From Desulfobacterales bacterium (GTDB taxonomy: Bacteria > Desulfobacterota > Syntrophobacteria > B119-G9): a stretch of 48,785 bases of DNA. Within the stretch, counting starts at the first letter, position 1, and each line of letters begins with the position of its first letter. The translations under genes were made by a program, and so were the position numbers. Below, piece by piece: positions 28,791 to 45,145 of the stretch. The notes below the pieces were generated by a model. That model made no database searches and was not told where the DNA came from. It saw only the letters and a list, made by a program, of their open reading frames with translations. The stretch is from positions 1 to 48,785 of the forward strand of contig JALSTM010000182.1 of assembly GCA_026983715.1 (NCBI GenBank), written 5' to 3'.

Positions 28791-28841
28791 GCGAGACTGC
28801 CATTAAAACACGCTAAAGTGTTACATGTTCATAAGGAAGTA

Positions 28842-31346
28842 ATGACGAAAATGAACAGGCGTAGCCTTGCCAAATTGTCCAATAGGTTATCTCTTCAGAA
28901 GAAGTTTTTTCTAGCTACAGCCACAATTTTGATGATCTTTACTCTGCTTGTCTCGGTTTTCGTGTACGTGAGTTTAAAGCACTTTTTGCTAGAGTATTCC
29001 TATGAGAAAACTAGACTTTTAATGGCAGAGGCAGAAGCAGCCCGCAAGTATGTTAAGGACATCCTCAGACCCAAGATGTACGCAATTTTACCCAAGGATT
29101 CCTTTGTAGTAGAAGCGATGTCGACGTCCTACGTTACCAGAAAAGTAATGGGAAAAGTTGCCTACATTTCGAAAGACATGATGTACAAGAGAGCAGCAAT
29201 GGACCCTCATAACCCCTCGAACAAGGCCGATGAATTCGAGAGGAAGATGATTCTTGAGTACAATAAGACCCACAGTAGAAGAGAGTGGCAGGGTATAATT
29301 CAGCGTAATGGCCGTAATTGGTTTGTTACAATTGAGCCTATATATACTGAGAAAACATGCCTAAGATGCCACGGATCACCATCAAACGCACCACTGGAAC
29401 TGACCCAACGTTACGGGACATCGTCAGGGTTTCACAGGAAGGAAGGGGAAGTGGCCGGGCTAGATGTTGTGGCCATTCCAGTAGATAATGCCCTGTCCCA
29501 GATTCACAGGGTCGCTTTAGTTATAATTGGCACAGGAATACTGACAGTAATTACACTCTTCGTATTCGTAGGTCTGTTTTTTGAGAAGCTTGTCCATAGG
29601 CCGCTTAAGTCTCTTAATAGCTTCTGTGAAAGCGTCGAAAAGGGCACGTGGAAAACAGATGAACCAATGCGGATGTGCGCGGATGATGAGATTGGTAGGG
29701 TAGCGGTTTCCTTCGAAAGGCTCGTAAGGCATCTACAAGACACTCAGAGAAAGCTCCAGAAATACTCGGAGAATCTGGAGACCCTTGTGGATTTGAGGAC
29801 AAAGGAACTTAACCAGAACAGGAAGTTTCTCGAAACATTAGTGGCCACATCTCCCATCGGTTTTCTCGTCATCAATGGCCAGGGCGAAGTTATTTTCTGG
29901 AATGATGCGGCTCAACAGATAACCGGCATACCTGCCCGCAAAGTTCTCAGACACTACATTGACAACCTTGACTTCCTTCACCCTTTGATCATAGACGTTC
30001 CGAAGAACATAAACAAGACAGAGTCGCATTCGAGCAAGGAATCGACATTTGTGCAGCCCGGGGGATCGACCATTCATCTCCTGGTTAACCAGGCTACCAT
30101 ATCAGGTGAAAACCCCGACGCGTTCATGACAATAATAAACTTTACCGATATATCTGAGATCAAAAGGCTTCACGAAGAACTAGACAGATACGCATCAGAA
30201 CTTGAAATCATAATCGATGAAAAGGTAGCGCTCTTGAGAGAATCCGAGCTTCGATACAGGGAGCTCTTTCAACATGCCAATGATGCTATACTTTTCCTTA
30301 GTGACAGGGATTTCAAAATTATCGACGTGAACCCTCGTTGGCTGAAACTTTCAGGGTACAAAAAGGAGGAGATTATCGGTGAGCCTCTCTACGACTTCCT
30401 TGAAGCCAAAGATAATCAGTGTGCGCTCAAGTGCCTCGAAAGAAGCTACAAAAAACCATGTACCCTAAAACTTAAGTCAAAGAAAAACAATCGCATCTAT
30501 ATTGAGCTGATTTCGAGTAGCTTCGCCATGAATAACAAGAGCTACATTATGAGTATTGTCAGGGACATTACTGCACGTAAACAGTTAGAAGAAGCGATAT
30601 TGCATACCAATATCGAGCTGAAAAAGAGAAATAAGGCGCTCCAGGACATGACCATCAAGCTCTCAAAGGTAGAAGAAAAAACGCGAAGAAAATTTTCTAC
30701 CATCCTTCATGACCAAATCGGACAAGACCTTGCAGCAATAAAAATCAATATTGGAATGCTGAAAAAACAAATGGAAAAAGAGAACATTAAGTTGTTTAAG
30801 GAACTTGCAAGGATGCAGGAGCTTTTGGACAAGGTTATCGCAACCACAAGAGATCTGACCCTGGAAATGTACCCGACAATACTTGATAATCTGGGTTTGG
30901 TGGCGGCATTGAGGTGGTACGCAGACTATTTCTCGGAAAAATTTGCCATGCAAGTGAGCGTACGAGAAAGGGGTACAATCAACAGACTTCCCTTAGATGT
31001 CGAAAACCTGCTTTTCAGGCTGGTCCAAGAAGCTCTAGTTAATTGCGCAAAACACTCCGGAGCCAAGGAAGCTATCCTTTCGGTTTGGGGAACGGACGCG
31101 AAAATTACTATTACAGTGGCTGATGATGGCAAAGGATTTGACCTCAAGAAATTGAACAGTACCTCCCTCCACTCAGGGGTAGGATTACACATAATACGGG
31201 AAAGAATGAACTATCTAGGAGGATCAATTGAAATTCTTAGTAACCCGGGAGCAGGGACAATAGTTATTTTTCAGCTTCCACTCCAGTGCTTAACTGACAA
31301 AAAAGCTGCTTCCGGCATCGATGATCTACCTAACTATTACGGTTAA
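28842..31346 (+). CDS. Sensor histidine kinase with haem-binding DUF3365-like domain (NarX/DesK type)
   Basis: An 834-residue membrane kinase. The ATG at 28842 is preferred; 28818 (GTG) and 28851 are alternatives. TM1 is at about 20-45 and the extracytoplasmic domain at about 45-215 carries CLRCH (173-177), a c-type haem motif within a Tll0287-like/DUF3365 fold. TM2 (about 222-245), HAMP (about 247-300), a coiled coil and two PAS domains (about 330-450 and 465-590) follow. HisKA_3 has the phospho-His H623 in ILHDQIGQDLA, and the ATPase domain has LVQEALVNCAKHSG and DDGKGFD. It should sense redox state or a gas ligand and signal to the NarL-type regulator 51 bases downstream. Confidence 0.93.
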   Translation: MTKMNRRSLAKLSNRLSLQKKFFLATATILMIFTLLVSVFVYVSLKHFLLEYSYEKTRLLMAEAEAARKYVKDILRPKMYAILPKDSFVVEAMSTSYVTRKVMGKVAYISKDMMYKRAAMDPHNPSNKADEFERKMILEYNKTHSRREWQGIIQRNGRNWFVTIEPIYTEKTCLRCHGSPSNAPLELTQRYGTSSGFHRKEGEVAGLDVVAIPVDNALSQIHRVALVIIGTGILTVITLFVFVGLFFEKLVHRPLKSLNSFCESVEKGTWKTDEPMRMCADDEIGRVAVSFERLVRHLQDTQRKLQKYSENLETLVDLRTKELNQNRKFLETLVATSPIGFLVINGQGEVIFWNDAAQQITGIPARKVLRHYIDNLDFLHPLIIDVPKNINKTESHSSKESTFVQPGGSTIHLLVNQATISGENPDAFMTIINFTDISEIKRLHEELDRYASELEIIIDEKVALLRESELRYRELFQHANDAILFLSDRDFKIIDVNPRWLKLSGYKKEEIIGEPLYDFLEAKDNQCALKCLERSYKKPCTLKLKSKKNNRIYIELISSSFAMNNKSYIMSIVRDITARKQLEEAILHTNIELKKRNKALQDMTIKLSKVEEKTRRKFSTILHDQIGQDLAAIKINIGMLKKQMEKENIKLFKELARMQELLDKVIATTRDLTLEMYPTILDNLGLVAALRWYADYFSEKFAMQVSVRERGTINRLPLDVENLLFRLVQEALVNCAKHSGAKEAILSVWGTDAKITITVADDGKGFDLKKLNSTSLHSGVGLHIIRERMNYLGGSIEILSNPGAGTIVIFQLPLQCLTDKKAASGIDDLPNYYG

Positions 31347-31397: not shown

Positions 31398-32045
31398 ATG
31401 AAAGCAAAGATCTTACTCGCAGACGATCATAACCTCGTAAGGGAAGGATTCAAGGCAATAATATCACAGAACAAAGATTATATCATTGTGGGCGAGGCAA
31501 AGGATGGTAAGGAGGCCATTGATAAGTCGATACAGCTCGAACCTGATATCGTTATCATGGACATACTAATGCCTCACATCAACGGAATAGTTGCCACCGA
31601 AGAAATCAAGAAGAATCTCGAAAATACCAATATTATCATACTTTCGATGTATAAGGAAAAACAATACGTGCTAAATGCTTTTATTGCAGGAGCCAAGGGT
31701 TACCTGCTTAAAGATGCAGCAGTTGATGAACTCCTCGAAAGTATAGATAGAGTCTTGCATGGAGAAATTTATATCAGTCCTCCTGTTGCCAAGTACGTAA
31801 TCGAGGATTATTGTAACCTCCTCAATAGAAAAAAAAGCGTAGATCCTTTCAAGAAACTAACATCCAGGGAAAAACAGTTACTCCAGATGATTGCCGAAGG
31901 GAAAAGGACAAAGGAGATAGCTGATATCCTATGTATAAGCCCCAAAACTGTGAAGACCCACAGAAGCGCTCTTATGAAAAAACTCGACTTGCACGACGTA
32001 GCAAGCCTGACCAGGTATGCTCTCCAAAAGGGTCTAGTCACGTAA
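31398..32045 (+). CDS. NarL/LuxR-type response regulator
   Basis: A 215-residue regulator. The receiver (1-125) has ADDH, the phospho-Asp in IVIMDILMP, and the Lys in YLLKDA. The HTH (about 150-210) reads LTSREKQLLQMIAEGK and ISPKTVKTHRSALMKKL. It is the obvious partner of the HisKA_3 kinase just upstream. Its targets are not visible, though the DUF202-receiver gene starts about 200 bases downstream. Confidence 0.95.
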   Translation: MKAKILLADDHNLVREGFKAIISQNKDYIIVGEAKDGKEAIDKSIQLEPDIVIMDILMPHINGIVATEEIKKNLENTNIIILSMYKEKQYVLNAFIAGAKGYLLKDAAVDELLESIDRVLHGEIYISPPVAKYVIEDYCNLLNRKKSVDPFKKLTSREKQLLQMIAEGKRTKEIADILCISPKTVKTHRSALMKKLDLHDVASLTRYALQKGLVT

Positions 32046-32251: not shown

Positions 32252-33349
32252 ATGGATATGCAGCGTAAAACAATAGCTGGGAATAGCAATGATATCGAGA
32301 TTTCCCCACCCAGCGAATACACACCCATTTTAGGCCCCTTAGATGTTTACTTAAAGCATAAGAATCTTGCCGGGCGGAGGAAATCTTACATTGAGGAGCT
32401 TTACCTGTACAGGAAATCTTACATTCGGGAATTGAAGGAAGCCCTGGAAGACGTGCTGACAGAACTTGAAAAGGAAGAGTCACCCTCCCATCTCATGGCA
32501 CTCCTCAACACCAAGTATGCCCTGGAAAGGAATATTCTTGCAGAAGAGCGGAACCTGCTTTCAGAAGAAAGATCGCTTCTTGCAGAAAGGCGCACTTCGG
32601 AAGCTGTCGGAAGAACAGAATTGGCTGAAAACCGAAACGGTCTTGCAAGAATCAGAACACTCTTGTCGAAAAACAGGGGATTTCTGGCAGAAAAAAGGAC
32701 CATTATGGCGCAGCAACGCACCTTTCTGGCCAAGGCTAGAACAGAACTTGCTTTTATCAGGACCGGTGTCGCTTTTATAGCATTAGCCACAGGGCTCATG
32801 CGTTATTTCGGCATGGGCTGGTGGACAATCACCGACGCCATAATCTTTATCTTGGGAATAGCAATGGTTAGCACCGGCATTTATTACTACCTGCCCACTA
32901 GAAGACAGGAAGGCCGACTTATTGACCTGATCAGGCAGAAAGAAGAAGACCTGATGGGCAAAAAACCCAGAATAATGGTGCTCGACGATGATCCAAACGT
33001 GTGCAAGACGCTAAAACTATATCTCAAAAAAGAAGGTTACGAGGTCGAAGCATTCATCGATCCCCTTGCTGCCAAGGAACGGTTAGAAACCACCGAATTC
33101 GATGTCGTTATCACGGACCTCATGATGGAAGGAATGGATGGTTTTGAAGTACTAAAGCTGATAAAAAGACTATCTCCAAACACACAAGTAATTATGATAA
33201 CCTATATAGGAACTTCTCAACACATTCTTAAAGCCATGCGAGAGGATCTGTTCGACTACCTCGTAAAACCGGTCAATATTGAAGAGCTTAAAGACAGCGT
33301 AAAACGGGCTATTGAAAAGAAAAGACAAAAGTTAGAGAGGGCAGCTTAA
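32252..33349 (+). CDS. DUF202 membrane protein with extended heptad coil and C-terminal receiver
   Basis: A 365-residue protein. Residues 1-90 are helical with a near-repeat RKSYIEELYLY / RKSYIREL. Residues 92-175 are twelve consecutive heptads, each with Arg at position 2 and mostly xR(T/N/S)xLAx. The last three or four are the normal DUF202 motif (RTFLAKARTELAFIRTG). Two membrane helices follow at about 175-205 and 208-230. Residues about 245-360 are a receiver: VLDDDP, the Asp in VVITDLMMEGMDG, and the Lys in YLVKPV. AAGGAG lies just before the ATG. It ends one base before the next gene, so the two are translationally coupled. Confidence 0.88.
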   Translation: MDMQRKTIAGNSNDIEISPPSEYTPILGPLDVYLKHKNLAGRRKSYIEELYLYRKSYIRELKEALEDVLTELEKEESPSHLMALLNTKYALERNILAEERNLLSEERSLLAERRTSEAVGRTELAENRNGLARIRTLLSKNRGFLAEKRTIMAQQRTFLAKARTELAFIRTGVAFIALATGLMRYFGMGWWTITDAIIFILGIAMVSTGIYYYLPTRRQEGRLIDLIRQKEEDLMGKKPRIMVLDDDPNVCKTLKLYLKKEGYEVEAFIDPLAAKERLETTEFDVVITDLMMEGMDGFEVLKLIKRLSPNTQVIMITYIGTSQHILKAMREDLFDYLVKPVNIEELKDSVKRAIEKKRQKLERAA

Positions 33350-33350
33350 G

Positions 33351-35945
33351 ATGCTAAAGTTCTTAAAAATGTTAAAAAAAGAAAGGCGGAAAGGCTCTGA
33401 TGAAGAGGAGCATTTTCGAGAAAAATACGAAGCCTTTATGACAATTCTTGCAGAAAATGAACATGCGCTGGAATTGATGACAGAATTAGAAAAAAAATAT
33501 TACAGCAGCGAACTAACCAGTATCCCATATTTGAAAAACGTTATAAAGAACCTGTCCAAGAGTATTAGGTATGTTGTGGACAGCCTGGTTCAGCTATCAG
33601 GAGGAAAGTACAAAGAAGTTGTCGATGTATTCGAAGAAATAGAAGATGAGATTCGTGAGATAATTACTGGAAAAAAAGAGCCTTTATATACTCCCGTCAT
33701 CATTCCCATGGACCAGCTCACAAAAGAATTCATTGACAAAGCAGGTACCAAGATGGCTAACCTTGGAGAACTTCGCAATAAGGTAGGGCTGCGAGTTCCG
33801 GATGGTTTTGCCGTAACAGCCTGTGCGTATCAACAATTCATCGACTACAATTCGATAATCCCGAAGGCCGCAAAGATTCTTGAGAAACTCAACATAGACG
33901 ACAACCAGGAACTCATCAAGGCTGAAAAAGAATTAAAGAAGCTCGTCCTGGAGGCAGAAGTCCCACCCGAAATTTATTATCTTATAGAAAAACACTCAAA
34001 AGAATTGGAAAAACGTGCAGGTAAGCAGCTTTTCTGGGCAGTTAGGAGCAGTGCCCTTGGTGAAGATTTAGAAAATTCCTTTGCAGGCCAGTTCTCCACC
34101 GTTTTAAACGTACCCACTGACGAACTTGCTACCAAATACAAAGAAGTGATCTCAAGCAAATACAATGCTCGAGCAATCGTGTACAGGAAAATTAAGAATA
34201 TCAGGGATGATGATATAAGTATGAGCGTGGGAATAGTAGAAATGATCCACCCACTTTGTTCAGGGGTTTTATATACCACTGATCCGGTGAAACCCGAAAA
34301 ACAAGAGATTATTATCAATGCCGTATGGGGGTTGGGACAGCTACTTGTAGAAGGAGTGGTTTCGGCAGACATTTTCGTAATTGATCGATCTAATGGCTTT
34401 TCCATCAGGAAAGAAGAAATAGCGGAAAAACAGGTTTGCCTGGTGGAATGTAGAAGTGGGGGAACAGATTATGAAGTGGTTCCAGATGACAGATGCTCGA
34501 AACCTTGCCTTGATGAACGACAACTAGAAGAGCTTGCAGAAGTCGCCGTAAAGGTTGAAAAACACTTTTCGTGCCCCCAAGATATTGAATGGGTCTACGA
34601 CAAGAATGGCGAACTCTACCTTTTGCAGGCCAGGCCGCTACACGTAATTAAGGCTAGTTCAGAAGAAGAAGCAACGCACGTTTTGGACGCTCCCATAATA
34701 TCGAAAAAGGGTGAGCCCGTCAGCGCTGGAGTCGCAGTCGGTAAGGTTTTTAAGCTAGATGACATCCATGATCTCATTAATCTACCTCGGGGTGCAGTAC
34801 TCGTTACTCGCAGTTCTACCCCCAGGCTTGTAAAAGCTGTTGGAAAAGCTTCCGCAATACTGGCAGAGAGAGGTAATACGACGGATCATATGGCATCTGT
34901 CGTTAGAGAATTCAAAATTCCGTGCATGGTAAAAGTTCCCGAAATTTTTTCCAAGCTTCAAAATGGACAGGAGATAACAGTCGACGCTACGCTAGGTATT
35001 ATTTACGAAGGATGTTTTCCTGAATTGATTAAAGAAGAAACGGAACTCAAGGAAACCTGGATCGACGTAAAAAATACCGAGTCCTACCAGGTGCTTCAAA
35101 GGCTTTCAAAATTAATAATACCCCTTCATCTCACAGATCCTAGGGACCATAATTTCAGGCCTGAATGCTGCAAAACCTGGCACGACATTCTCAGATTTTG
35201 CCATGAAACTGCATTGAATGAAATGTTTTCGCTTACAGAGAAAGAAGAGATCAAGAAGATTAAGCAGGTATACAAGATAAAAACTAAGCTGCCCTTCCAA
35301 CTTTACGTACTGGATCTCTATGGTAATACCGTGCAAGTAAAAGAGCAAAAGACAATCGACCCGGAAACCGTCAATTCCCTCCCCTTTCAAGCCCTATGGA
35401 AAGGGATGTCTGCACCTTATGTCCCGTGGTCGGGTCCCCCGGTGGCGATGAGCATGAAAGATCTGCTTGGGGCAATGTCGCGAACGACATCTCTGGAAAG
35501 TGCACCAAAAGATACGAGGAGTCTGGCAGTAGTTACTAAGGACTACCTCAACCTGAGCTTGAGTATGGGATTTCATTACGTTATACTTGATGCCTATCTT
35601 TCAAGTCACCCGTTTAACAATTATATCTCTTTCTCCTTCAAAGGGGGAGCTGCAGAACTACGAAAGCGAGAACTGAGAGTAACACTTGTTGGAAGGATTC
35701 TCCAGCGCCTGGGGTTTGAAGTAAAGAAAACAAGAGACTTCCTAAAAGCAAGAATAAAGGCTGACACAGCAGAAACTCTGGCAAAAAAACTAAACACCAT
35801 CGGCAGAATGCTGGGGGTAACACGGCTCTTAGACATTGCCATGTCTTCGGAAGAAACTGTTGAACAGTACCTGGAACGTTTCTTTAACCAGGATTACTCA
35901 TTAGAAGCTGGAAACGATAAGACTGTCTCCCAGTCAAGCGGCTAA
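33351..35945 (+). CDS. PEP-synthase-like protein with unknown C-terminal domain (plus-strand copy)
   Basis: An 864-residue cytosolic protein. Residues 1-105 form a helical N-domain. Residues about 120-445 are the ATP-grasp PEP/pyruvate-kinase N-domain: MANLGEL, WAVRSSALGEDLENSFAGQ, SGVLYTTDP, QDIEWVYDKNGELYLLQARP. Residues about 465-560 are the swivelling His domain with catalytic His H513 in TTDHMASVVRE. The C-terminal PEP barrel of PpsA is not recognisable. Instead residues 590-855 form a domain shared with the 40343-42913 protein (RPECCKTWHDILRFCHETA). It can probably form phospho-His from ATP but cannot be a normal PEP synthase. Partner: the adjacent receiver. Confidence 0.88.
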   Translation: MLKFLKMLKKERRKGSDEEEHFREKYEAFMTILAENEHALELMTELEKKYYSSELTSIPYLKNVIKNLSKSIRYVVDSLVQLSGGKYKEVVDVFEEIEDEIREIITGKKEPLYTPVIIPMDQLTKEFIDKAGTKMANLGELRNKVGLRVPDGFAVTACAYQQFIDYNSIIPKAAKILEKLNIDDNQELIKAEKELKKLVLEAEVPPEIYYLIEKHSKELEKRAGKQLFWAVRSSALGEDLENSFAGQFSTVLNVPTDELATKYKEVISSKYNARAIVYRKIKNIRDDDISMSVGIVEMIHPLCSGVLYTTDPVKPEKQEIIINAVWGLGQLLVEGVVSADIFVIDRSNGFSIRKEEIAEKQVCLVECRSGGTDYEVVPDDRCSKPCLDERQLEELAEVAVKVEKHFSCPQDIEWVYDKNGELYLLQARPLHVIKASSEEEATHVLDAPIISKKGEPVSAGVAVGKVFKLDDIHDLINLPRGAVLVTRSSTPRLVKAVGKASAILAERGNTTDHMASVVREFKIPCMVKVPEIFSKLQNGQEITVDATLGIIYEGCFPELIKEETELKETWIDVKNTESYQVLQRLSKLIIPLHLTDPRDHNFRPECCKTWHDILRFCHETALNEMFSLTEKEEIKKIKQVYKIKTKLPFQLYVLDLYGNTVQVKEQKTIDPETVNSLPFQALWKGMSAPYVPWSGPPVAMSMKDLLGAMSRTTSLESAPKDTRSLAVVTKDYLNLSLSMGFHYVILDAYLSSHPFNNYISFSFKGGAAELRKRELRVTLVGRILQRLGFEVKKTRDFLKARIKADTAETLAKKLNTIGRMLGVTRLLDIAMSSEETVEQYLERFFNQDYSLEAGNDKTVSQSSG

Positions 35946-35970
35946 GCGGATTACCGAACTTCTGACTAAT

Positions 35971-36134
35971 GACTCAAATACCTAAAAACCACTAGCACGT
36001 CATGTCTGGATCGATCCGGCAGTTTAAAATAGACGTAGATTCCGGCTCTTCGCTTTGGCCGGAATAACGGATCTTGGATTGTTCTCGTGCTAGTTTTTTA
36101 AATTGATTGCTAGTTAAATCCGAATTTATCAGAG
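35971..36134. repeat. Family 2 repeat, copy F (164 bp)
   Basis: It starts GACTCAAATA and ends CAGAG, with CACGTCATGTCTGGATCGAT and GGCCGGAATAACGGATCTTG. It lies between the convergent PEP-synthase-like and kup genes. Confidence 0.65.
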
Positions 36135-36145
36135 TGTCCTTATCT

Positions 36146-38065
36146 CTAAAGTTTAATCTGTACTCCTATTTCAATAACCTGATCGGGGGGAATGCGGAAA
36201 AATCGGGTAGCATCCCTTGCATTTCTGGAGAGGAAAGCAAAGAGTTCTTTTCGCCATGTTTTCATTCCCCTGTCCCCTTTTATCAGTAAAGTTTCGCGCC
36301 CCAAGAAAAATGTTATTTCTGAAAGGTTTATATCAAGCTCTTCACTCTTTAGATGGCGCAAACCCCTTAGGACATTGGGATGCTCACTGAATCCATACCT
36401 GAGAATTACCCTGTAAAAACCTTCCCCTATCTCTTCGACTATTGATCTGTGCTTTCGCCTGACAAACGGTACTTCTTCTATCCGAACATGAAGAAGAATT
36501 ATCCTCTCATGAACAATTTTATTATGGTGAAAATTTCGAATAAGCGGAACAGGTGTACCTACAGGGTTACCAGTAAGAAAAATTGCTGTGCCGGGAACCC
36601 TGTAAGGTCTTTTTTCTTTGACTTGCTGCAAAAATTCTTTCAGGGGAACCACTTTCTCATCTATCCGTTTCTTTACCAGTTCCCGACCCTTTTTCCATGT
36701 CGTCATGAGGGTAAAAACGGTTAGGGCTACAAGAATTGGTACCCAGCCCCCTGAGGCAATCTTTGTAATATTGGAAGTGAAAAATCCCGTGTCAATGATC
36801 AGTAAAAATATTGTGAGCGGCAAAATTTGCCACAGTTTCCAGTTCCACAGGATGTGAGCCACTTCGAAGACCAGAAGAGTGGTAATAACCATGGTCGCTG
36901 ACACTGCAATACCGTATGCGGCGGCAAGATTGCCAGAATGGCGAAAACCAATAACCAGGCAAACAGTACCAATCAAAAGAATCCAATTGATACTAGGGAC
37001 ATAAACTTGCCCTATCTCTTCCCGTGAAGTATGCAATACGGTAAGGCGCGGGCTAAAGCCAAGCTGCATGGCTTGCCGTGTTAAGGAAAAAGAACCTGAT
37101 ATCACAGCCTGTGAAGCGATCACTGTAGCCATGGTAGCCAGTAGCACGAGGGGGTAAAGGGCCCACGAAGGAGCCAGTTTATAAAATAAGTTGTCCACAG
37201 CTTCCGGATGATCGAGAAGGAGTGCTCCCTGCCCAAAGTAATTCAAAAGGAGCGCAGGAAAGACCACAGAAAACCATCCTAACTGTATCGGCTTTCTCCC
37301 GAAGTGTCCCATGTCCGCATAAAGGGCTTCCCCGCCGGTTACTACCAGAAATACCGTCCCAAGCACTACAAACCCACGCCAGCCGCCTTTTGTAAATATA
37401 TGGATGGCAAATCTCGGATCAAACGCCATGAAAATCTTCGGGTCCTTGATTATTTCTTTAATCCCAAGGACGGCAAGAACAGAAAACCAGACGAGCATTA
37501 CCGGTCCAAAAATAGACCCTATTCCTGCAGTTCCGCGTTTCTGGAACATAAAAAGCGCTATAAGGATCGCAAGTGCTATCGGAATTACGTAAGGCTCAAA
37601 AAGCTTGGTTGCAACGTTAAGACCTTCAACGGCGCTAAGGACCGATATTGCTGGCGTTATCATGCCATCACCGTAAAGAAGGGCTGCCCCAAAAATCCCA
37701 AGGACAGTCATTAACAGTAACTTTGTTCCTCGTTTTTTCACACAGCTCGTGCCCAGCGTCATCAGGGCAAGAATACCACCCTCACCACGGTTGTCTGCAC
37801 GCATAACAAAGACCAGGTATTTAAAGGATATAACAATAACCAGGGACCAAAAAACAAGAGAAAGGACTCCTAAAATGTTGGCAGGAGTTACTGGGAGTGC
37901 ATCCCTACCTCGAAAACACTCTCTTACAGCGTACAAGGGGCTTGTCCCGATATCCCCGTAAACGATACCCAGTGCAGCAAGGGTTAATTTAAGTACGTAT
38001 GAAGAGTCTCTTCCGTTAGAGCCTTCTACACCATGATGTGCGCCTTCATTGTCTGTTTGTACCAT
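36146..38065 (-). CDS. kup: Kup-family potassium uptake protein
   Basis: A 639-residue transporter with about 12 membrane helices and a soluble C-terminal domain. The start region LAALGIVYGDIGTSPLYAV is the Kup signature, with ADNRGEGGILALM, GDGMITPAISVLSAVEGL, and a GGEALYADMGHFG segment. It drives H+-coupled K+ uptake in E. coli. It is the last gene of the minus-strand operon from 45102, 11 bases after the Usp gene, which suggests that K+ accumulation is part of the same stress response. Confidence 0.97.
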   Translation of the reverse strand: MVQTDNEGAHHGVEGSNGRDSSYVLKLTLAALGIVYGDIGTSPLYAVRECFRGRDALPVTPANILGVLSLVFWSLVIVISFKYLVFVMRADNRGEGGILALMTLGTSCVKKRGTKLLLMTVLGIFGAALLYGDGMITPAISVLSAVEGLNVATKLFEPYVIPIALAILIALFMFQKRGTAGIGSIFGPVMLVWFSVLAVLGIKEIIKDPKIFMAFDPRFAIHIFTKGGWRGFVVLGTVFLVVTGGEALYADMGHFGRKPIQLGWFSVVFPALLLNYFGQGALLLDHPEAVDNLFYKLAPSWALYPLVLLATMATVIASQAVISGSFSLTRQAMQLGFSPRLTVLHTSREEIGQVYVPSINWILLIGTVCLVIGFRHSGNLAAAYGIAVSATMVITTLLVFEVAHILWNWKLWQILPLTIFLLIIDTGFFTSNITKIASGGWVPILVALTVFTLMTTWKKGRELVKKRIDEKVVPLKEFLQQVKEKRPYRVPGTAIFLTGNPVGTPVPLIRNFHHNKIVHERIILLHVRIEEVPFVRRKHRSIVEEIGEGFYRVILRYGFSEHPNVLRGLRHLKSEELDINLSEITFFLGRETLLIKGDRGMKTWRKELFAFLSRNARDATRFFRIPPDQVIEIGVQIKL

Positions 38066-38076
38066 AGGGTTACCTG

Positions 38077-38967
38077 CTACCTCAGCACCAGTACGGAAGT
38101 GCTACAAGTTTTAATAAACCTGCCTATCGTGCTTTTTGAAAAGAATCGATCGAGGAGGGATTTTTTACCCATCCACAGAGCCAGAAGACCTTCTTTAACT
38201 TCGCTTTTTAGAAACGGCTCAAAATCACTTATTTCGTAGTACTTGAGAGACACTTTAATGTTTTTACTCTCAAGGTAGTCGTGTACCTTTTCAAGCCACG
38301 GATATACGTCCGCCTTAATTCCCATTCCTTTTGTTAATCCTATCAGGTCAACCTCAGCCCTGTGAATTGTAACCATCTGGTTTATCATCTCCAGAGATTC
38401 CTGGGTAATGTTTGTCTCGTCAAGGCACGCGTAAATCTTATTTATGGGGTGGGCTTCCTTGACTAGAAATACGGAACATTCCGCCTCGTTCACTATTTTC
38501 TCTGGTACGTACGGCACGTCTTCCCAGAGACACTGAGGGCCCTTGGTGCAACCCAGTATGATTAAATCGCTATCCGTTTCCCTTGATTCTGCGAGAATTT
38601 CCTTTACCACGTTACCAAATCGTACCTTCACTTTAAGATCCTTAAAACTGCCCCTGCATACCTTTATCTGTTCCCATACGGTCGATCTGGAAGTCAACCA
38701 CTCATACTTGCAGTTGCTTGCCTCATAGGGCGATTCACCCTTTTCCCAGTGACCCAAGAATATCTCCCTGTACCTGTCAAGTGCATTTAGCATCGGATCA
38801 TCCAACTTCAAAGAGCTGAACACACCACCTTGCACATCCCGGGATGGGCTACTTTTGGCAACCCCAACTATCGTGACACCTGCAAGGGTGTTTTCCGCAA
38901 GATTAACAAGCTCTTGAAGTGCGTACTCGCTGTATGGCATTGTGTCTGCAGCGAACAAGATCCTCAT
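38077..38967 (-). CDS. Universal stress protein, tandem Usp domains
   Basis: A 296-residue protein. The first Usp fold starts ILFAADTMPYSEYALQ and ends around SDLIILGCTKGP and ECSVFLVKEAHP. The second domain (about 165-296), KIYACLDETNITQESLEMIN ending TCSTSVLVL, is also Usp-like but has lost most of the ATP loop. A good AGGAGGG precedes the start. Such tandem proteins occur in stress and membrane-transport operons; the ligand is unknown. Confidence 0.85.
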   Translation of the reverse strand: MRILFAADTMPYSEYALQELVNLAENTLAGVTIVGVAKSSPSRDVQGGVFSSLKLDDPMLNALDRYREIFLGHWEKGESPYEASNCKYEWLTSRSTVWEQIKVCRGSFKDLKVKVRFGNVVKEILAESRETDSDLIILGCTKGPQCLWEDVPYVPEKIVNEAECSVFLVKEAHPINKIYACLDETNITQESLEMINQMVTIHRAEVDLIGLTKGMGIKADVYPWLEKVHDYLESKNIKVSLKYYEISDFEPFLKSEVKEGLLALWMGKKSLLDRFFSKSTIGRFIKTCSTSVLVLR

Positions 38968-39045
38968 ATTTCCCTCCCGAGTTCCTGGAACACTATGTTC
39001 TGCTCTCCATGTAATGCCATTTTTTGGCAGAAAAGCAGCGATCCG

Positions 39046-39816
39046 TCAAGCCCAGCATAAAAGAATAGGTGATGGAAGGTGCTGCACAAACTCAACCAGT
39101 GGCGCCTTGTCGATCTTGCCTCTATTAACGCCAATCGCTACTAGCCCGTAATCACGCAATCTTCCTACTTGGTGGGTGTTTTTTATCCTGTGTATATCTC
39201 CCACTTCGAAACCGCATTCCTTTAGGACTTCTTCAGCCTCCTTCTCATCCACGGATTTAACCAGGAATTCCGGTATCATTGCATCCATAGTCCATTTACC
39301 ACCCTTAAACAGGTTATTAAACATTGATAACATAGCCTTGGTAGTTGGCCGTTCCCTTATGACCAGCAAAACCTTATCAAGCGGTGTTAAATTCTGCACA
39401 AGGAGTATCGGGCAGGGAGCAGTCATGTACAGGGAACTCTGTAACTTTTTAGCAAGACCCTTGGACGAAAGAGGCCGCCGAATGCCTTCAACAAAAAGAT
39501 CGTACCCTCCCTTTTCGAGATGTTCCTGAATCTCTTTCTTGGGATCTCCCGCAAGAACGATGGGCTGGATAGAAACAGGACAGTACTGCTTTTCCGCCGT
39601 CAAAAGCTGTTCAATTTCCTTTTTACTCTCCTCCAGTTGAATCTTCTCCCAGGTTCTCCTTGCCCACCCTGCATGAACCATGTGTGAATGCCCCTCAGGT
39701 TGGTGAGCATGAATGGCCTGAATTTCCATGTCAAACATTCCCGCTAGATTACACGTGTATCTTAAGGCAATACTAGATGAGAGATCTGGATCAACATAAA
39801 CCAACGCTTTAATCAT
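39046..39816 (-). CDS. Universal stress protein-like, tandem domains
   Basis: A 256-residue protein. ATG 39816 is preferred over the upstream GTG (39822), since AAAGGAG is seven bases before the ATG. The first Usp domain has LVYVDPDLSSSIALRYTCNL and YDLFVEGIRRP ... CPILLVQNLTP. The second domain starts DKVLLVIRERPTT and ends LPSPILLCWA. The nucleotide loop is not well kept, so it may be a ligand-binding or structural Usp. Second of two tandem Usp genes after the receiver. Confidence 0.8.
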   Translation of the reverse strand: MIKALVYVDPDLSSSIALRYTCNLAGMFDMEIQAIHAHQPEGHSHMVHAGWARRTWEKIQLEESKKEIEQLLTAEKQYCPVSIQPIVLAGDPKKEIQEHLEKGGYDLFVEGIRRPLSSKGLAKKLQSSLYMTAPCPILLVQNLTPLDKVLLVIRERPTTKAMLSMFNNLFKGGKWTMDAMIPEFLVKSVDEKEAEEVLKECGFEVGDIHRIKNTHQVGRLRDYGLVAIGVNRGKIDKAPLVEFVQHLPSPILLCWA

Positions 39817-39907
39817 TGACACGCTCCTTTATCATTTTTAATTTTCTTTTTTTACGTCCGCCTCGTCCAATTATTCCCCCTATATTCTATACCCCTCTCT
39901 TTGACTC

Positions 39908-40318
39908 CTACCCTTTACCTTTCCCTGAAGCCTCACCGGCTTTTTTCTTCCTTTCCGCTTTTTTCACTACTTCTCGAATTTCGCTTATTTTAAAAGGTTT
40001 CGCCACGAAATCAAAAACGCCTTTCTGGAAAGATTCCTTGGCAGTTTCCATGGTTGCAAATCCTGTAATTACAATTACTTCAGTCTCAGGAGACCTTTCC
40101 TTCACAGCCGTAAGAAACTGCATTCCATCTACGCCCTCCATTTTGAGGTCGGTAATGACGATATCAAAATCTTGTTCCTGAACTCTTTCCATGGCCTCGG
40201 AACTGTTAGTGAAGGCTTCCACCTCGTATCCAAGCTTCTCAAATGCGGGTTTTAGCCTTTTACAGACGATAGGTTCATCGTCCAGAATTAAAATACGAGT
40301 CTTGCTCTCTTCACTCAT
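39908..40318 (-). CDS. Single-domain response regulator (receiver)
   Basis: A 136-residue receiver followed by a Lys-rich tail (KKAERKKKAGEASGKGKG), without output domain. ILDDE, the phospho-Asp in IVITDLKMEGVDG, and FVAKPF are intact. ATG 40318 is chosen because AGGAGG lies just upstream. It closely resembles the receiver of the DUF202 protein (VEAF..., VITDLxMEGxDG) and, like it, is next to a PEP-synthase-like gene, 24 bases downstream of it. Confidence 0.93.
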   Translation of the reverse strand: MSEESKTRILILDDEPIVCKRLKPAFEKLGYEVEAFTNSSEAMERVQEQDFDIVITDLKMEGVDGMQFLTAVKERSPETEVIVITGFATMETAKESFQKGVFDFVAKPFKISEIREVVKKAERKKKAGEASGKGKG

Positions 40319-40342
40319 AAAATTTCCTCCTTGATAAAGCAC

Positions 40343-42913
40343 CTATCTCAAAAGTCCGCCAATACGTTGTTTGAATTCTTCCTCGAAATGATTCACGTGA
40401 TCATCATGTTTCATGAGCACGTCAAGCTGGCGGGTATATGCTACAAGGCCTCCCAGTAAAACGACCCTTCTTTCCATTTCATCCCTTGGCAATTTCTTTA
40501 TCCGCCCAATGACCAGGTCACCCTTGATCTCGACCCTGAAATCATACTGTTCCAGGATGTTCGCTATAAACCTAGCCCTTCGGGATCTTCTGGTAATCTC
40601 TGTCACCCCTCCAAGGAAGCGGAAATACGCGTAGTTATCGTTTACGCTATCACTTATATAAACGTCGATTATGTTAAAATGATAGCCCAACCTAAGGCTC
40701 ATGTTCATGTATTCCTTGCTCAGCACCACGAGATTTTTCCCGACCTGTTCCGGGCTAGCCATGGAAGACGAAAACGTTCTTGTAAGACTAGACATAAAAC
40801 TTCCGAGATCAACCGAGACAGGCTCATTAGCCCACAACCCTGCATGGCAAAGACCTTTTACGAAGGCTATCATTGGTATGGAAGTAATCATGTCCATGGT
40901 AACGACGTTTTTATTTTCAAGTTCTTTTATTCCTCCCCCAATGTCAAGCACCGAAACACCAAGAGGTATATCAAGTTCAAGACGCTTAAGCCCTGATCTG
41001 AGCCACTTACTGGATCTTTCGCCGATTTGAATGAGCTCATCCACGGCCTTTTCATGTACGAAGCGAACAATATCGTGGTACGTCTGGCAGCCATCTGGCC
41101 TGAATCTTTCATCATGAGGATCAACTATGTTCAACGGAACCACCTTTCTCAATATCCTTCTCAAGAGGCGGTACTCGTATGATTCCTCAAAAACATCTTC
41201 TTGAATCAATTCGTAGAGGCACAACTCCTTGAATTTCCCCGCATATACGACATTTTGAGTTGCGTCAACCGTGATTTCATCGCCAGTCTTTAACATCTGG
41301 GTGGCAACACCGGTGTTAACTATGGTAGGAACCCTGAATTCCCTGGCAACCGTTGCCATGTGCCCGGTGGGAGATCCTATGTCGGTTAAAATAGCAAGTG
41401 CTTGCTTTATCGCCTTGGTCAATCTCGGAGAAGTGTGCCTAGCAACAACGATAGAACCAATAGGGACTTTGCCCACGTCATCGTCAGTCTCTATCACGAA
41501 TACCGTTCCGCATGCCACGCCTCTTTGAACAACGTCTCCCTTCCCTTCGAAAAGTACCTTCTGACCCTGGGTAATGTCGGGAAGCAGACAGAATTCTCCC
41601 ATGTATGGTAACTGGACTTTCAGGGGCCTAGTTTGAAGGATTATCAATTCATGGTTTTCGCCTATTGCCCACTCGATGTCCTGGGGCCTTTTATAATAAC
41701 GTTCAAGAACCATTGCCACGTGAGCCAGACGTTCAATATCTTCTGACGTCAGACAGGGTTTATGCTGGCGGTCTTCCGGGACATCCACTTCTCGTGTTCC
41801 GCCACCTTCTTCCGCCACAAGCATTTTCGCTTTGTGTACAATATTTAAGTGCTTTACCGTGTAGGGAGCATCCCTGCTTACGTGATACCTGTCCGCAGAA
41901 GCCTCACCGGAAACCACCGGAGCCCCTAGACCCCACGTAGCTGATATCACCATCAAATCTTTTTCTGGTGAAATAGGATCCATCGTGTAAAGGACACCAC
42001 TTGAGCGAGGATTCACCATAAGCTGGCACCCTACGGCCATGGAAATCTCGTGCTCAAGGAATCCCTTTTGCTGGCGGTACTCCCAGGCTGTGGGAGAGTA
42101 AGTACTGGCTATTACTTTCTTGTAATAATCCAACACCTCTTCATCCGGAACATTCAAAAAACTTTCATACTGGCCCGCAAAACTGTGTTCCGTATCTTCC
42201 TCTATGGCACTGCTTCTAACCGCAAAATAGATCCTTTCCTCACCGAGCTTGGACTTTAACTTTGTTACAGCACGTCTTATTTCCTTTGCCACACCGGTGG
42301 GAACCTCACTTTGGAGTATCTTGTCAGTAACCTCCTTAGAAATAGTTTCCAAGGAAGTGGCGCCGTGCCTGATATCGTTCTCAATATCTTTCAGGATCTT
42401 ATCAATCCCGCTTTCACCTAAGAACTCGTGGAAAGCCCTGGTGGTTATTACAAACCCATCAGGAGTAAGAAGTTCAAGCACGCTATTAATCTCACCAAGA
42501 TTGGCGTTTTTATTGCCCACGGATTCGATATCATCCATGGTAACTTCCTCGTAGAAAACAACCAGACGTTCATCTCCGTAGGCAGGTCTTCCTTCCAGTT
42601 CTGCCTGGATCTGCGACTGGATGCGCTCGTATGCATGGTAGAGGTCAACATATTTCTGAGATGTGAGCATGTTAAGGTCATAGATTATCTTATAGACCAG
42701 GTCGTTGAGCCTGTTACTTACATCAATTATGTACTGGCGATCAAATACGTAATCACCTCCGAGCTTGTCCCCCATGTCTGCCATGATCTCAAGTATTTCG
42801 TTGTTTCTTTTTAGTATGCTTTGAAACCTGGCAAACAGGACCGCAAAAGAAGTTGGATCCGTCCTGGTCCGCCAAAAGGCAAGCTTATGTTTTATGCGCT
42901 CAAAACTTCCCAT
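40343..42913 (-). CDS. PEP-synthase-like protein with unknown C-terminal domain (minus-strand copy)
   Basis: An 856-residue protein with the same plan as 33351-35945. A helical N-domain (1-110) precedes the ATP-grasp domain: NKNANLGEIN, FAVRSSAIEEDTEHSFAGQ, SSGVLYTMDP, QDIEWAIGENHELIILQTRP. The swivelling domain has H518 in SPTGHMATVAREF. The C-terminus (about 590-850) shares RPDGCQTYHDIVRFVHEKA with the other copy. No PEP-barrel motifs are seen. AAGGGG precedes the ATG. It is 15 bases from the TIGR02186 gene and 24 bases before the receiver. Confidence 0.88.
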   Translation of the reverse strand: MGSFERIKHKLAFWRTRTDPTSFAVLFARFQSILKRNNEILEIMADMGDKLGGDYVFDRQYIIDVSNRLNDLVYKIIYDLNMLTSQKYVDLYHAYERIQSQIQAELEGRPAYGDERLVVFYEEVTMDDIESVGNKNANLGEINSVLELLTPDGFVITTRAFHEFLGESGIDKILKDIENDIRHGATSLETISKEVTDKILQSEVPTGVAKEIRRAVTKLKSKLGEERIYFAVRSSAIEEDTEHSFAGQYESFLNVPDEEVLDYYKKVIASTYSPTAWEYRQQKGFLEHEISMAVGCQLMVNPRSSGVLYTMDPISPEKDLMVISATWGLGAPVVSGEASADRYHVSRDAPYTVKHLNIVHKAKMLVAEEGGGTREVDVPEDRQHKPCLTSEDIERLAHVAMVLERYYKRPQDIEWAIGENHELIILQTRPLKVQLPYMGEFCLLPDITQGQKVLFEGKGDVVQRGVACGTVFVIETDDDVGKVPIGSIVVARHTSPRLTKAIKQALAILTDIGSPTGHMATVAREFRVPTIVNTGVATQMLKTGDEITVDATQNVVYAGKFKELCLYELIQEDVFEESYEYRLLRRILRKVVPLNIVDPHDERFRPDGCQTYHDIVRFVHEKAVDELIQIGERSSKWLRSGLKRLELDIPLGVSVLDIGGGIKELENKNVVTMDMITSIPMIAFVKGLCHAGLWANEPVSVDLGSFMSSLTRTFSSSMASPEQVGKNLVVLSKEYMNMSLRLGYHFNIIDVYISDSVNDNYAYFRFLGGVTEITRRSRRARFIANILEQYDFRVEIKGDLVIGRIKKLPRDEMERRVVLLGGLVAYTRQLDVLMKHDDHVNHFEEEFKQRIGGLLR

Positions 42914-42928
42914 TAAAACCCCTTGCGG

Positions 42929-43723
42929 CTAGTGAGCTCCCTTGCCAGCACCAAATATCAGTCCCATAAGGAGCCCACCAAGAATGGCAACAATTGTGGC
43001 CAAAACACCGTAGAGCAAAGCATGCTTGAAGGCCATCTTGTATAAGAAAGCCGGCAGTCCTACCAGTTTTGCCTCTATTGGTATTACCTTACTACCTGTA
43101 ATGTTTCCGTCCGCAAGCGCGTAAACTTCCACGGCATAATTACCCGGAGTCAGCGATGACGGAACCTTCACGTGAGCTTCAAATGGCTCGATATCTCCAC
43201 CTTTCTGAGTAACCTTAACACCTTCGGAATTCTCAACGTAAAGGCCTTCGAGTTTCTTCATTTTTACAAGTTCCTTGACGAGGAAAGTTTTATCTTTGGG
43301 CTCAGGTTCGATATCTATCTGACTTTCAAGAGCCTCCAAGCTTAACCTCCACGCATCGTTACTGCTCCCACTGGCCTCCCTGGACCCAGAAGCGAGTTGT
43401 TTGTTTGAATAAATAAGACAAACGTTTGGAATACCTTTAAAAACAAAGGTATCCAGGTTCATCCAAAGCAACCCGAGTACTTTTCCCTTTTTCTTCAAGT
43501 GAAGATCTTTTTTTATACCCATGAACCTAACGACTACGTCGCTGCCTGCAGGAACACTCCCCATTACCTTGATGTCTGCACCCCTATAGAAGGTACCAAG
43601 CAATAAACTGGCGGGTTCAACCTTTACCTGGATCTTTTGAGTACAGTTTCCAAAACCCGGAAGCAAGAACAATAGACTGATAGTAACTATCACATTAAAT
43701 ATTATAACTTTTTTCCATCTCAT
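42929..43723 (-). CDS. TIGR02186 family membrane protein
   Basis: A 264-residue protein with an N-terminal signal/anchor (about 5-25), an extracytoplasmic beta domain, and one C-terminal helix (about 232-258). LLLGTFYRGADIKVMGSVPAG and the KKGKVLGLLWMNLDTFVFKGIPNVC stretch match the TIGR02186/Alph_Pro_TM pattern. In other bacteria such genes adjoin TauE/SafE permeases, as here (four bases apart), so it probably assists that permease. No enzymatic motif is visible. Confidence 0.85.
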   Translation of the reverse strand: MRWKKVIIFNVIVTISLLFLLPGFGNCTQKIQVKVEPASLLLGTFYRGADIKVMGSVPAGSDVVVRFMGIKKDLHLKKKGKVLGLLWMNLDTFVFKGIPNVCLIYSNKQLASGSREASGSSNDAWRLSLEALESQIDIEPEPKDKTFLVKELVKMKKLEGLYVENSEGVKVTQKGGDIEPFEAHVKVPSSLTPGNYAVEVYALADGNITGSKVIPIEAKLVGLPAFLYKMAFKHALLYGVLATIVAILGGLLMGLIFGAGKGAH

Positions 43724-43727
43724 TTTC

Positions 43728-44672
43728 TTAATGCCCTCCAGTATAAGCCAAGAAAACCTTAGGTGGCAGTAAAAGCCCCAGCAACATTTTCACCATTACC
43801 AAAAGCACCAGGATAGCCAAAAATATCTTGATCTGTTCTCCCTTTAGCTTTTTGCTTATCTTTGCTCCGAACTGAGCCCCCACGGTTGAACCTAAAAGCA
43901 GTAACAACGCGAGAACAAAATCAACGGTGTGGTTAGTGTATGCCTGCATTATGGTAACGTCAATGCAGGTAAAAAGTATTTGGAAGAGGCTTGTCCCCAC
44001 CACAACGTGCATGGGCATCCTCAACAGATACACCATGACCGGGACCATGATAAATCCGCCTCCCACTCCCATAATGGCAGCCAGGATACCCACGAATACC
44101 CCGAGCACCAGGGGCATAAGTATGGACAACCGTACTCCTGACCGCGTAAAATCAGTTTGGAAAGGCAGTTTTTTGACCAATTGTGCATATCTCGATTCCT
44201 TTGTCGGAATTGGGACTTCGGCAACCTCGATTTCTTTTTTACTTTTCTTTAATGATTGTAAACTTTCCAGGAGCATATAGCTTCCAATAAAACCCAGCAT
44301 AAGTACATAAGTAATTTTTATCAAAAAGTCGGCATTGCCAAGCTGCCTCAGTACCTTGATAATTTGAACTCCGACTGTACCTCCAATCACCCCACCTATT
44401 AACAGGAGAATCCCCATTTTGAAATCTACATTCCCTAGTCTGAAATGAGCGATGGTACCAGACGTAGATGCTCCAACTATCTGATTAGAATCCGAAGCGG
44501 CAGCAACTGTAGGAGGTATCCCTATCATGATCAGGAGTGGAGTCATAAGGAAGCCTCCTCCAACTCCAAAAATTCCTGACAAAAGCCCAACTAGAAGTCC
44601 TAGACTCAATACCAGTAAAATGTTAACACTGCTTCCTGCAATCGGTAGATATAAATACCACGGTAGATGCAT
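43728..44672 (-). CDS. TauE/SafE-family sulfite/sulfonate permease
   Basis: A 314-residue inner-membrane protein with about eight helices in two related halves. Each half has a glycine motif: GIFGVGGGFLMTPLLIMIG and IMGVGGGFIMVPVMVYLL. ATG 44672 (with GGAAGGA before it) is preferred over a longer in-frame start that would overlap the Usp gene. The family exports sulfite or sulfonates across the inner membrane; the substrate here is inferred only. Paired with TIGR02186. Confidence 0.9.
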   Translation of the reverse strand: MHLPWYLYLPIAGSSVNILLVLSLGLLVGLLSGIFGVGGGFLMTPLLIMIGIPPTVAAASDSNQIVGASTSGTIAHFRLGNVDFKMGILLLIGGVIGGTVGVQIIKVLRQLGNADFLIKITYVLMLGFIGSYMLLESLQSLKKSKKEIEVAEVPIPTKESRYAQLVKKLPFQTDFTRSGVRLSILMPLVLGVFVGILAAIMGVGGGFIMVPVMVYLLRMPMHVVVGTSLFQILFTCIDVTIMQAYTNHTVDFVLALLLLLGSTVGAQFGAKISKKLKGEQIKIFLAILVLLVMVKMLLGLLLPPKVFLAYTGGH

Positions 44673-44697
44673 AATCCCATCCTTCCCACGATGAAGT

Positions 44698-45102
44698 TTA
44701 AGTTCTCTTTTGCACAATCTCTATTCTACATTGAACACGATGTCTGATATTCTGGTGTGCTTTTAAACATTTTACACTCTCCTTGTAACCCTCATCCGCC
44801 TGTTCAACAATCAGGTGAGTTATCCCATGCTCTTCGACAAAACTTATCACCTCCTCTTCATAGGACCCTCTACAAACATAAAACTCTACGAAAATACCCT
44901 TTGATTCAGCATCTTCAAGCATTAACTCCAATCTTTCCCTTACCGATTCTTCCTCGTCACTTGCTACATTTTCTACCCATTGTTCCGGGTAAATAAGGAG
45001 CACAGACACGTGTGCACTCAGGCGTTCGGCAAGGTTGAACGCTCTATCCAGGGCTTCCCACGCCCCGCGCTGTGCTTCAACGCAAACAAGTATTCTTTCC
45101 AT
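44698..45102 (-). CDS. UspA-type universal stress protein
   Basis: A 134-residue single-domain Usp. ILVCVEAQRGAWEALDRAFNLA opens the fold, and HGITHLIVEQADEG holds the third strand. The C-terminal Gly-rich ATP loop (GS-x-T) is missing, so ATP binding is unlikely. The ATG at 45102 is preferred to a TTG two codons upstream. First gene after the sigma-54 promoter at 45128-45145. Confidence 0.8.
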   Translation of the reverse strand: MERILVCVEAQRGAWEALDRAFNLAERLSAHVSVLLIYPEQWVENVASDEEESVRERLELMLEDAESKGIFVEFYVCRGSYEEEVISFVEEHGITHLIVEQADEGYKESVKCLKAHQNIRHRVQCRIEIVQKRT

Positions 45103-45127
45103 GTGCAAAATACCCCGACCTTTGCCA

Positions 45128-45145
45128 AAGCAAGCATAGTGCCAG
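45128..45145 (-). promoter_or_regulatory. Sigma-54 promoter of the Usp-TauE-...-Kup operon
   Basis: The minus strand reads CTGGCACTATGCTTGCTT: TGGCAC and TTGCT with GG and GC exactly 10 bases apart, an almost perfect -24/-12 element. Transcription would start near 45118, about 16 bases before the Usp ATG. Confidence 0.85.

Follow-up and report, generated by a model that had tools for sequence, protein, structure and literature searches.

Two genes for proteins resembling phosphoenolpyruvate (PEP) synthase, here called PPS_A and PPS_B, lie in a stretch of 48,785 nucleotides from a Desulfobacterales bacterium (assembly GCA_026983715.1, contig JALSTM010000182.1), the whole of which we refer to as the window. 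As a first-pass annotation had read from the sequence, each directly adjoins a gene for a receiver, fused to a DUF202 domain in the case of PPS_A (DUF202-REC) and free in the case of PPS_B (RR2). Both receivers are intact, and the gene order differs between the two modules (REC-PPS_A but PPS_B-REC). Gene calls are mechanical (Table 1). DUF202-REC, whose receiver occupies residues 245-354 of the longer open reading frame (ORF), likely starts at the ATG at 32252, which has AAGGAG ahead of it, and PPS_A begins one base past its stop; RR2 likely starts at an ATG around 40318, 24 bases past the PPS_B stop and with GGAGG ahead, the mechanical ORF start being 40342.

PPS_A and PPS_B are intact ORFs with a mutual sequence identity of 34%, and in Pfam both match the ATP-grasp domain PPDK_N (E-values of 2e-90 and 1e-89, respectively) and the mobile histidine domain PEP-utilizers (PF00391; 3e-16 and 3e-20). 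The ATP-grasp residues K135, R233, E239, D240, E414, Q427 and R429 are present in both, and H513 of PPS_A aligns with H518 of PPS_B and with the catalytic histidine segment of solved PEP synthases. The PEP/pyruvate barrel (PEP-utilizers_C, PF02896) is matched in neither protein, whereas the same search picks it up in a true PPDK encoded on a different contig of the genome. Among NCBIfam models the proteins score best against those for PEP synthase, at 352-368 or about half of the cut-offs (598-740), and more weakly against those for RPH and PigC. Searches and alignments thus agree with the first-pass annotation that both proteins keep the ATP-grasp domain and the swivelling histidine and carry no barrel; what its inventory overlooked, its main features otherwise standing, are the domains at either end of the proteins and the histidine kinase and NtrC genes nearby. 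The N-terminal domain of PPS_B was modelled as a three-helix bundle, for which an HPt-like identity could not be established as the bundle has no credible match, and the apparent N-terminal extensions in some relatives look like start artefacts.

Both proteins end in a conserved domain of about 270 residues that has no match in Pfam and no credible match in the PDB by sequence or profile. Modelled in AlphaFold with 75 relatives, it adopts an alpha/beta fold (pLDDT 86, pTM 0.79) without a barrel match, and Foldseek searches of the PDB and of viral models returned nothing below an E-value of 0.001; weak matches to a YbjN/RecJ-like fold (TM ~0.2) were not used, and the RPH structures match nothing in this region. 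The conserved set in PPS_B comprises H613, D614, R617, H620, E621, H745, R779 and D831, in which H613, D614, H745, R779 and D831 are invariant among 197 relatives and H620 is kept in 196, as is the swivel histidine H518. Such an invariant His/Asp/Arg set is the profile expected for an active or acceptor site, and we propose that the domain may take the place of the barrel in passing on the phosphate. The sole copy with a proline in place of the swivel histidine (L137, 8315-10876) retains the operon and the receiver, and may reflect an error in a metagenome-assembled genome (MAG).

Judged by their sequences, PPS_A and PPS_B belong to an undescribed family of predicted phosphohistidine dikinases of the PEP-synthase/RPH type, which occurs in many sulfate-reducing and related bacteria. 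Of 198 genomes searched within the phylum, 78 encode the C-terminal domain of PPS_B, in as many as 12 copies each, and named relatives come from Desulfatibacillum, Desulfacinum, Solidesulfovibrio, Desulforhopalus and Desulfogranum, as well as from MAGs labelled Nitrospirae and Myxococcota; matches in plasmid records cover the ATP-grasp/His part alone and are mostly annotated as PEP synthase. The genome of the window holds four copies, all with strong PPDK_N matches. In the tree, PPS_B clusters with copies from the same operon type and PPS_A with one of the other copies in this genome. The third copy has TauE, histidine kinase and receiver genes as neighbours, and after the fourth (in L056 2798-8211, contig C128) come a dual-specificity phosphatase, a PP2C phosphatase and Ser/Thr kinases that carry FGE-sulfatase domains, then a histidine kinase and NtrC. 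A long ORF on contig C119 of G000 (L180) has a large unassigned N-terminal half followed by PPDK_N and PEP-utilizers.

With PEP synthase (pyruvate, water dikinase; TIGR01418/PRK06464) the family shares the ATP-grasp and swivel His domains in the same order, at about 33-35% identity, but it carries the new C-terminal domain in place of the barrel, has extra N-terminal helices and scores far below the family cut-offs. RPH, HpeHI, CreHI and PpsAB likewise combine an ATP-grasp domain and a phosphohistidine with another acceptor domain in place of the barrel (PMC4844700, PMC12167813); in contrast to RPH-type dikinases, the PPS proteins have a different predicted acceptor domain, a central rather than C-terminal His domain, and a receiver partner. 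An association between receivers and PPDK has already been noted, as REC-PPDK fusion regulators are on record from Bacteroides-like bacteria and Heimdallarchaeota, and receivers without the aspartate are enriched with PPDK outputs (PMC5847659, PMC4395418), whereas here dikinase and receiver are encoded by separate adjacent genes and the receiver aspartate is intact. Acceptor-domain swaps and receiver-PPDK fusions are known, and no paper on the present family, its third domain or the receiver pairing was found in the literature searched, the scope of which ended short of subscription papers and preprints.

The pairing was followed across 140 fetched loci and the window, where a TIGR02186 gene lies ahead of 77 distinct copies but not of the other 107. 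The 77, most of them obtained with PPS_B as the search seed, describe that operon type rather than the whole family, and since the loci are related, and many stem from MAGs, the counts are of copies and not of independent events. In this TSUP-TIGR02186-type operon the receiver lies directly downstream in 75 of the 77 copies, 70 by gene calling and five recovered by tblastn, the apparent losses in these five being gene-calling misses. Conversely, of the 30 best RR2 orthologues in a genome search, 29 adjoin a dikinase gene, the closest being 60-78% identical. The genome of the window has 94 receiver matches, about 20 of them in short single-domain ORFs, so that adjacency by chance would be of the order of one per cent, and the pairing of PPS and receiver is non-accidental. 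The acidic pair, the phosphorylatable aspartate, the threonine and the lysine are kept in both receivers of the window and in all 106 PPS-adjacent receivers. The first-pass annotation had seen a shared pattern, VITDLxMEGxDG, in the two window receivers, and its core DLxMEGxDG is indeed enriched, being present in 54 of 93 receivers beside a PPS gene and in 12 of the 197 other receivers encoded at these loci. Outside the TIGR02186-type operon, an adjacent receiver accompanies 36 of the other 107 copies and is missing, by gene call, from 71.

As a fusion, DUF202-REC is a local variant. Of 198 genomes, 13 have related DUF202 stretches, and the reading frames that hold the best matches mostly leave no room for a receiver. 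DUF202 proteins are found within six genes of 22 of 184 PPS copies, and a search of viral contigs with the DUF202 part gave no match. Ahead of its DUF202 domain the protein carries a run of LAxxRT-type seven-residue repeats (window 32480-32780), and its fusion to a receiver was not seen elsewhere. Nor did the 140 fetched loci contain a gene in which receiver and PPS are fused, the two being adjacent genes only.

Table 1. Features of the two modules and their surroundings, in window coordinates.
Feature	Position	Strand	Basis and remarks
PF03601 (Cons_hypoth698) protein	26374..27744	+	Pfam, E 1e-40; context of module A
Sensor histidine kinase (Tll0287-like, PAS, HisKA_3, HATPase_c)	28818..31346	+	Pfam
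NarL-type response regulator	31398..32045	+	Receiver; LuxR-type C-terminal end read from sequence
DUF202-REC fusion	32252..33349	+	PF00072 E 1e-27, PF02656 E 8e-6; LAxxRT-type repeats, DUF202, receiver
PPS_A	33351..35945	+	N-terminal helical domain, ATP-grasp 130-442, swivel domain H513, new C-terminal domain
Kup-type K+ transporter	36146..38065	-	NCBIfam TIGR00794, above cut-off
Universal stress protein USP1	38077..38967	-	PF00582; operon position conserved
Universal stress protein USP2	39046..39822	-	PF00582; operon position conserved
RR2, free single-domain receiver	39908..40318	-	PF00072 E 3e-31; all phosphorylation residues present
PPS_B	40343..42913	-	Three-helix N-terminal domain ~15-116, ATP-grasp 130-434, swivel domain H518, C-terminal domain ~570-848
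TIGR02186-like membrane protein	42929..43723	-	PF09608 E 9e-40
TSUP/TauE-type anion transporter	43728..44717	-	Operon position; similarity to TauE (PF01925) protein of another locus
USP3, small universal-stress-type protein, first gene of the operon	44698..45108	-	
Sigma-54 promoter TGGCACTATGCTTGCT	45129..45144	-	Zero mismatches; upstream of USP3
NtrC-type sigma-54 activator with receiver	45267..46649	-	Pfam
HAMP-HisKA-HATPase histidine kinase, partner of the NtrC protein	46646..48070	-	Pfam

The NarL-type regulator is probably the partner of the sensor histidine kinase encoded upstream of it. At some distance from both modules, a single ORF of the window (16091-18406) joins a cysteine-synthase-like PALP domain to a cysteinyl-tRNA synthetase.

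The operon around PPS_B follows a common order, which runs histidine kinase, NtrC, USP, TSUP, TIGR02186, dikinase, receiver, USP, USP. Its sigma-54 promoter is the sole zero-mismatch site in the 48.8 kb window, and sites with one mismatch or none occur in 24 of 69 related operons, against 0.2 expected from shuffles. A histidine kinase lies within ten genes of 88 of the 106 receiver-paired copies. The alpha1 and beta5-alpha5 segments of receivers are those that contact the kinase, as known from work on kinase specificity, and it is in these that a receiver of the RR2 type is most like the NtrC receiver encoded at the same locus, with a similarity of 0.473 against 0.359 over the rest; when the pairings are shuffled, values as high as the observed one arise in 0.05% of trials with the contact segments and in 4.4% with the rest. 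A kinase shared between RR2 and NtrC is the simplest reading of this resemblance. The proposal in the first-pass annotation that the system is independent of a kinase finds no support in these observations, that is, the adjacent kinase and NtrC genes, the prevalence of kinases near receiver-paired copies, the likeness at the contact segments and the promoter next to NtrC.

Anion transport is the second recurrent theme. Both modules of the window are near an anion transporter gene, TSUP in module B and, upstream of module A, the PF03601 protein, whose family we take to be that of the PSE putative sulfate exporters. In loci of other types, anion transporters (TauE, CitMHS, DASS) are encoded within five genes of 44 of 63 copies, with a gene frequency near these copies of 52/517 against a background of 12/423. 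In some loci (L081, 7726-8445, and related ones) the gene between a long TSUP transporter and the PPS-like gene encodes a 235-residue protein of a family without a Pfam match; although it is equivalent to TIGR02186 in position, no relationship to TIGR02186 is recognisable (hhalign probability 0.4%). By gene content, module B resembles the Desulfovibrio vulgaris cluster DVU0540/DVU0539-DVU0542-0545, with its histidine kinase, sigma-54 NtrC-type regulator, two USPs and anion exporter (PMC10102598, PMC3333781, PMC4641369), but the genes listed there include neither a PEP-synthase-like protein nor a free receiver. That cluster of kinase, NtrC-type regulator, USPs and PSE exporter has molybdate phenotypes, the exporter being part of the DVU0539-0545 molybdate cluster (PMC10102598), and belongs to a sigma-54 regulon (PMC3333781, PMC4641369).

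A set of 13 paralogues has lost most or all of K135, R233, E239, E414, Q427 and R429, to varying degree (loci L103, L106, L109, L115, L121, L129, L131, L137, L140, L143, L146, L151 and L154). They are typically the second of three copies, in the order PPS1-receiver-PPS2*-PPS3, with intact copies in the same operons, and they form one clade (support 99/94) that extends across several families. Their ATP-grasp domains are 33% alike, compared with 45-46% among the intact copies at these loci, but conservation persists in the His domain (59%) and the C-terminal domain (54%); H518 and the C-terminal residues are retained in all 13, apart from R617, which is replaced by histidine. A histidine retained without an ATP site of its own suggests charging in trans by other proteins, by analogy with the split dikinase HpeI/HpeH, in which a separate ATP-grasp protein charges the histidine (PMC12167813). 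This clade supports a phosphocarrier role in general and not transfer to the receiver specifically.

The reading we prefer, with about even confidence, is that a kinase acts on the receiver and the receiver controls a dikinase that passes phosphate from ATP to its histidine and from there to an acceptor at the C-terminal domain, under stress linked to oxyanion transport. The adjacent kinase/NtrC pair would control the sigma-54 operon that carries PPS_B together with the transporter, TIGR02186, receiver and USP genes, and the same kinase would phosphorylate NtrC, for transcription, and most likely RR2. Phosphorylated RR2 might then act as an on/off switch for the dikinase or for its interplay with the transporter and the stress proteins, and in the dikinase the ATP-grasp domain would phosphorylate the swivelling histidine, from which the phosphate would move to an acceptor at the C-terminal domain. 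It is the kinase and NtrC neighbours, the promoter and the likeness of RR2 to NtrC at the contact segments that favour the step from kinase to receiver. Several points weigh against this reading. The receiver next to the dikinase could itself be the phosphate acceptor. Co-evolution, used to look for the dikinase domain that meets the receiver, had to be rejected as evidence, as a mirror-tree comparison of the receiver with the dikinase C-terminal domain (partial r of 0.48) gave a signal that TSUP nearly equals (0.44) and that is thus non-specific. By gene call, 71 of the 107 copies outside this operon type lack an adjacent receiver. What is observed are the domains, the catalytic residues, the reciprocal pairing, the promoter, the anion transporter neighbours and the likeness of RR2 to NtrC; we infer autophosphorylation and all further chemistry, the binding of receiver to dikinase, the acceptor, the direction of control and the signal.

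Compatible with the preferred reading, and a tentative possibility in its own right, is a relay between paralogues, in which an intact PPS charges the histidine of a dead copy and the receiver gates the chain. The clade of 13 paralogues that keep H518 and the new domain speaks for it, as does the trans charging known for HpeI/HpeH (PMC12167813), but retention of the histidine could be structural, and no member of the clade was seen among the four copies in the genome of the window, which match PPDK_N strongly. In a broader form, which we hold to be rather unlikely, the ATP-charged swivel phosphohistidine would serve as a mobile phosphocarrier between PPS-like proteins, dead paralogues included, exchanging phosphate with the dedicated receiver or being gated by it.

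We are similarly doubtful of a plain metabolic dikinase that phosphorylates a small molecule (perhaps one linked to the transported anion or to an aromatic compound), with the receiver as no more than a co-regulated neighbour. RPH, HpeHI and PpsAB use the same domain set on small molecules (PMC4844700, PMC12167813), and the weaker RPH and PigC matches, the resemblance of the invariant C-terminal His/Asp/Arg set to an active site and the nearby anion transporters agree with such a function. Against it stand the up to 12 copies per genome, set among kinases, receivers and sigma-54 activators, and the one-to-one receiver partner, conserved at 60-78% identity in the closest orthologues, which is unusual for plain metabolism. 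Less probable still is the model of the first-pass annotation, a phosphorelay from ATP through the swivel histidine to the receiver aspartate without any histidine kinase. The pairing, the histidine and all receiver residues are conserved as it would have them, and the dead clade keeps a histidine that in most loci is encoded right after the receiver, but the cluster also encodes a histidine kinase and NtrC, the receiver is NtrC-like where kinases bind, the C-terminus offers an invariant alternative acceptor domain, and most relatives outside the TIGR02186-type operon have no adjoining receiver, so that it is not needed as a universal acceptor. An ordinary PEP synthase with a hidden barrel, suggested by the top NCBIfam matches, can practically be dismissed given the missing PEP-utilizers_C match, the C-terminal model and the true PPDK elsewhere in the genome.

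Taken with the preferred reading, these observations suggest a previously unrecognised link between a phosphotransfer enzyme of metabolic type and two-component signalling, in a family that scores best against PEP-synthase models yet differs from them in its third domain, whose invariant His/Asp/Arg residues offer a defined target for finding the acceptor. If the phosphohistidine is a mobile phosphocarrier, it would couple the chemistry of dikinases to two-component signalling in the control of oxyanion transport, and if the receiver controls the dikinase or swaps phosphate with it, the pair would represent a type of two-component output or input without known precedent. Sulfate reducers would then gain a testable route from a kinase to anion transport and stress proteins.

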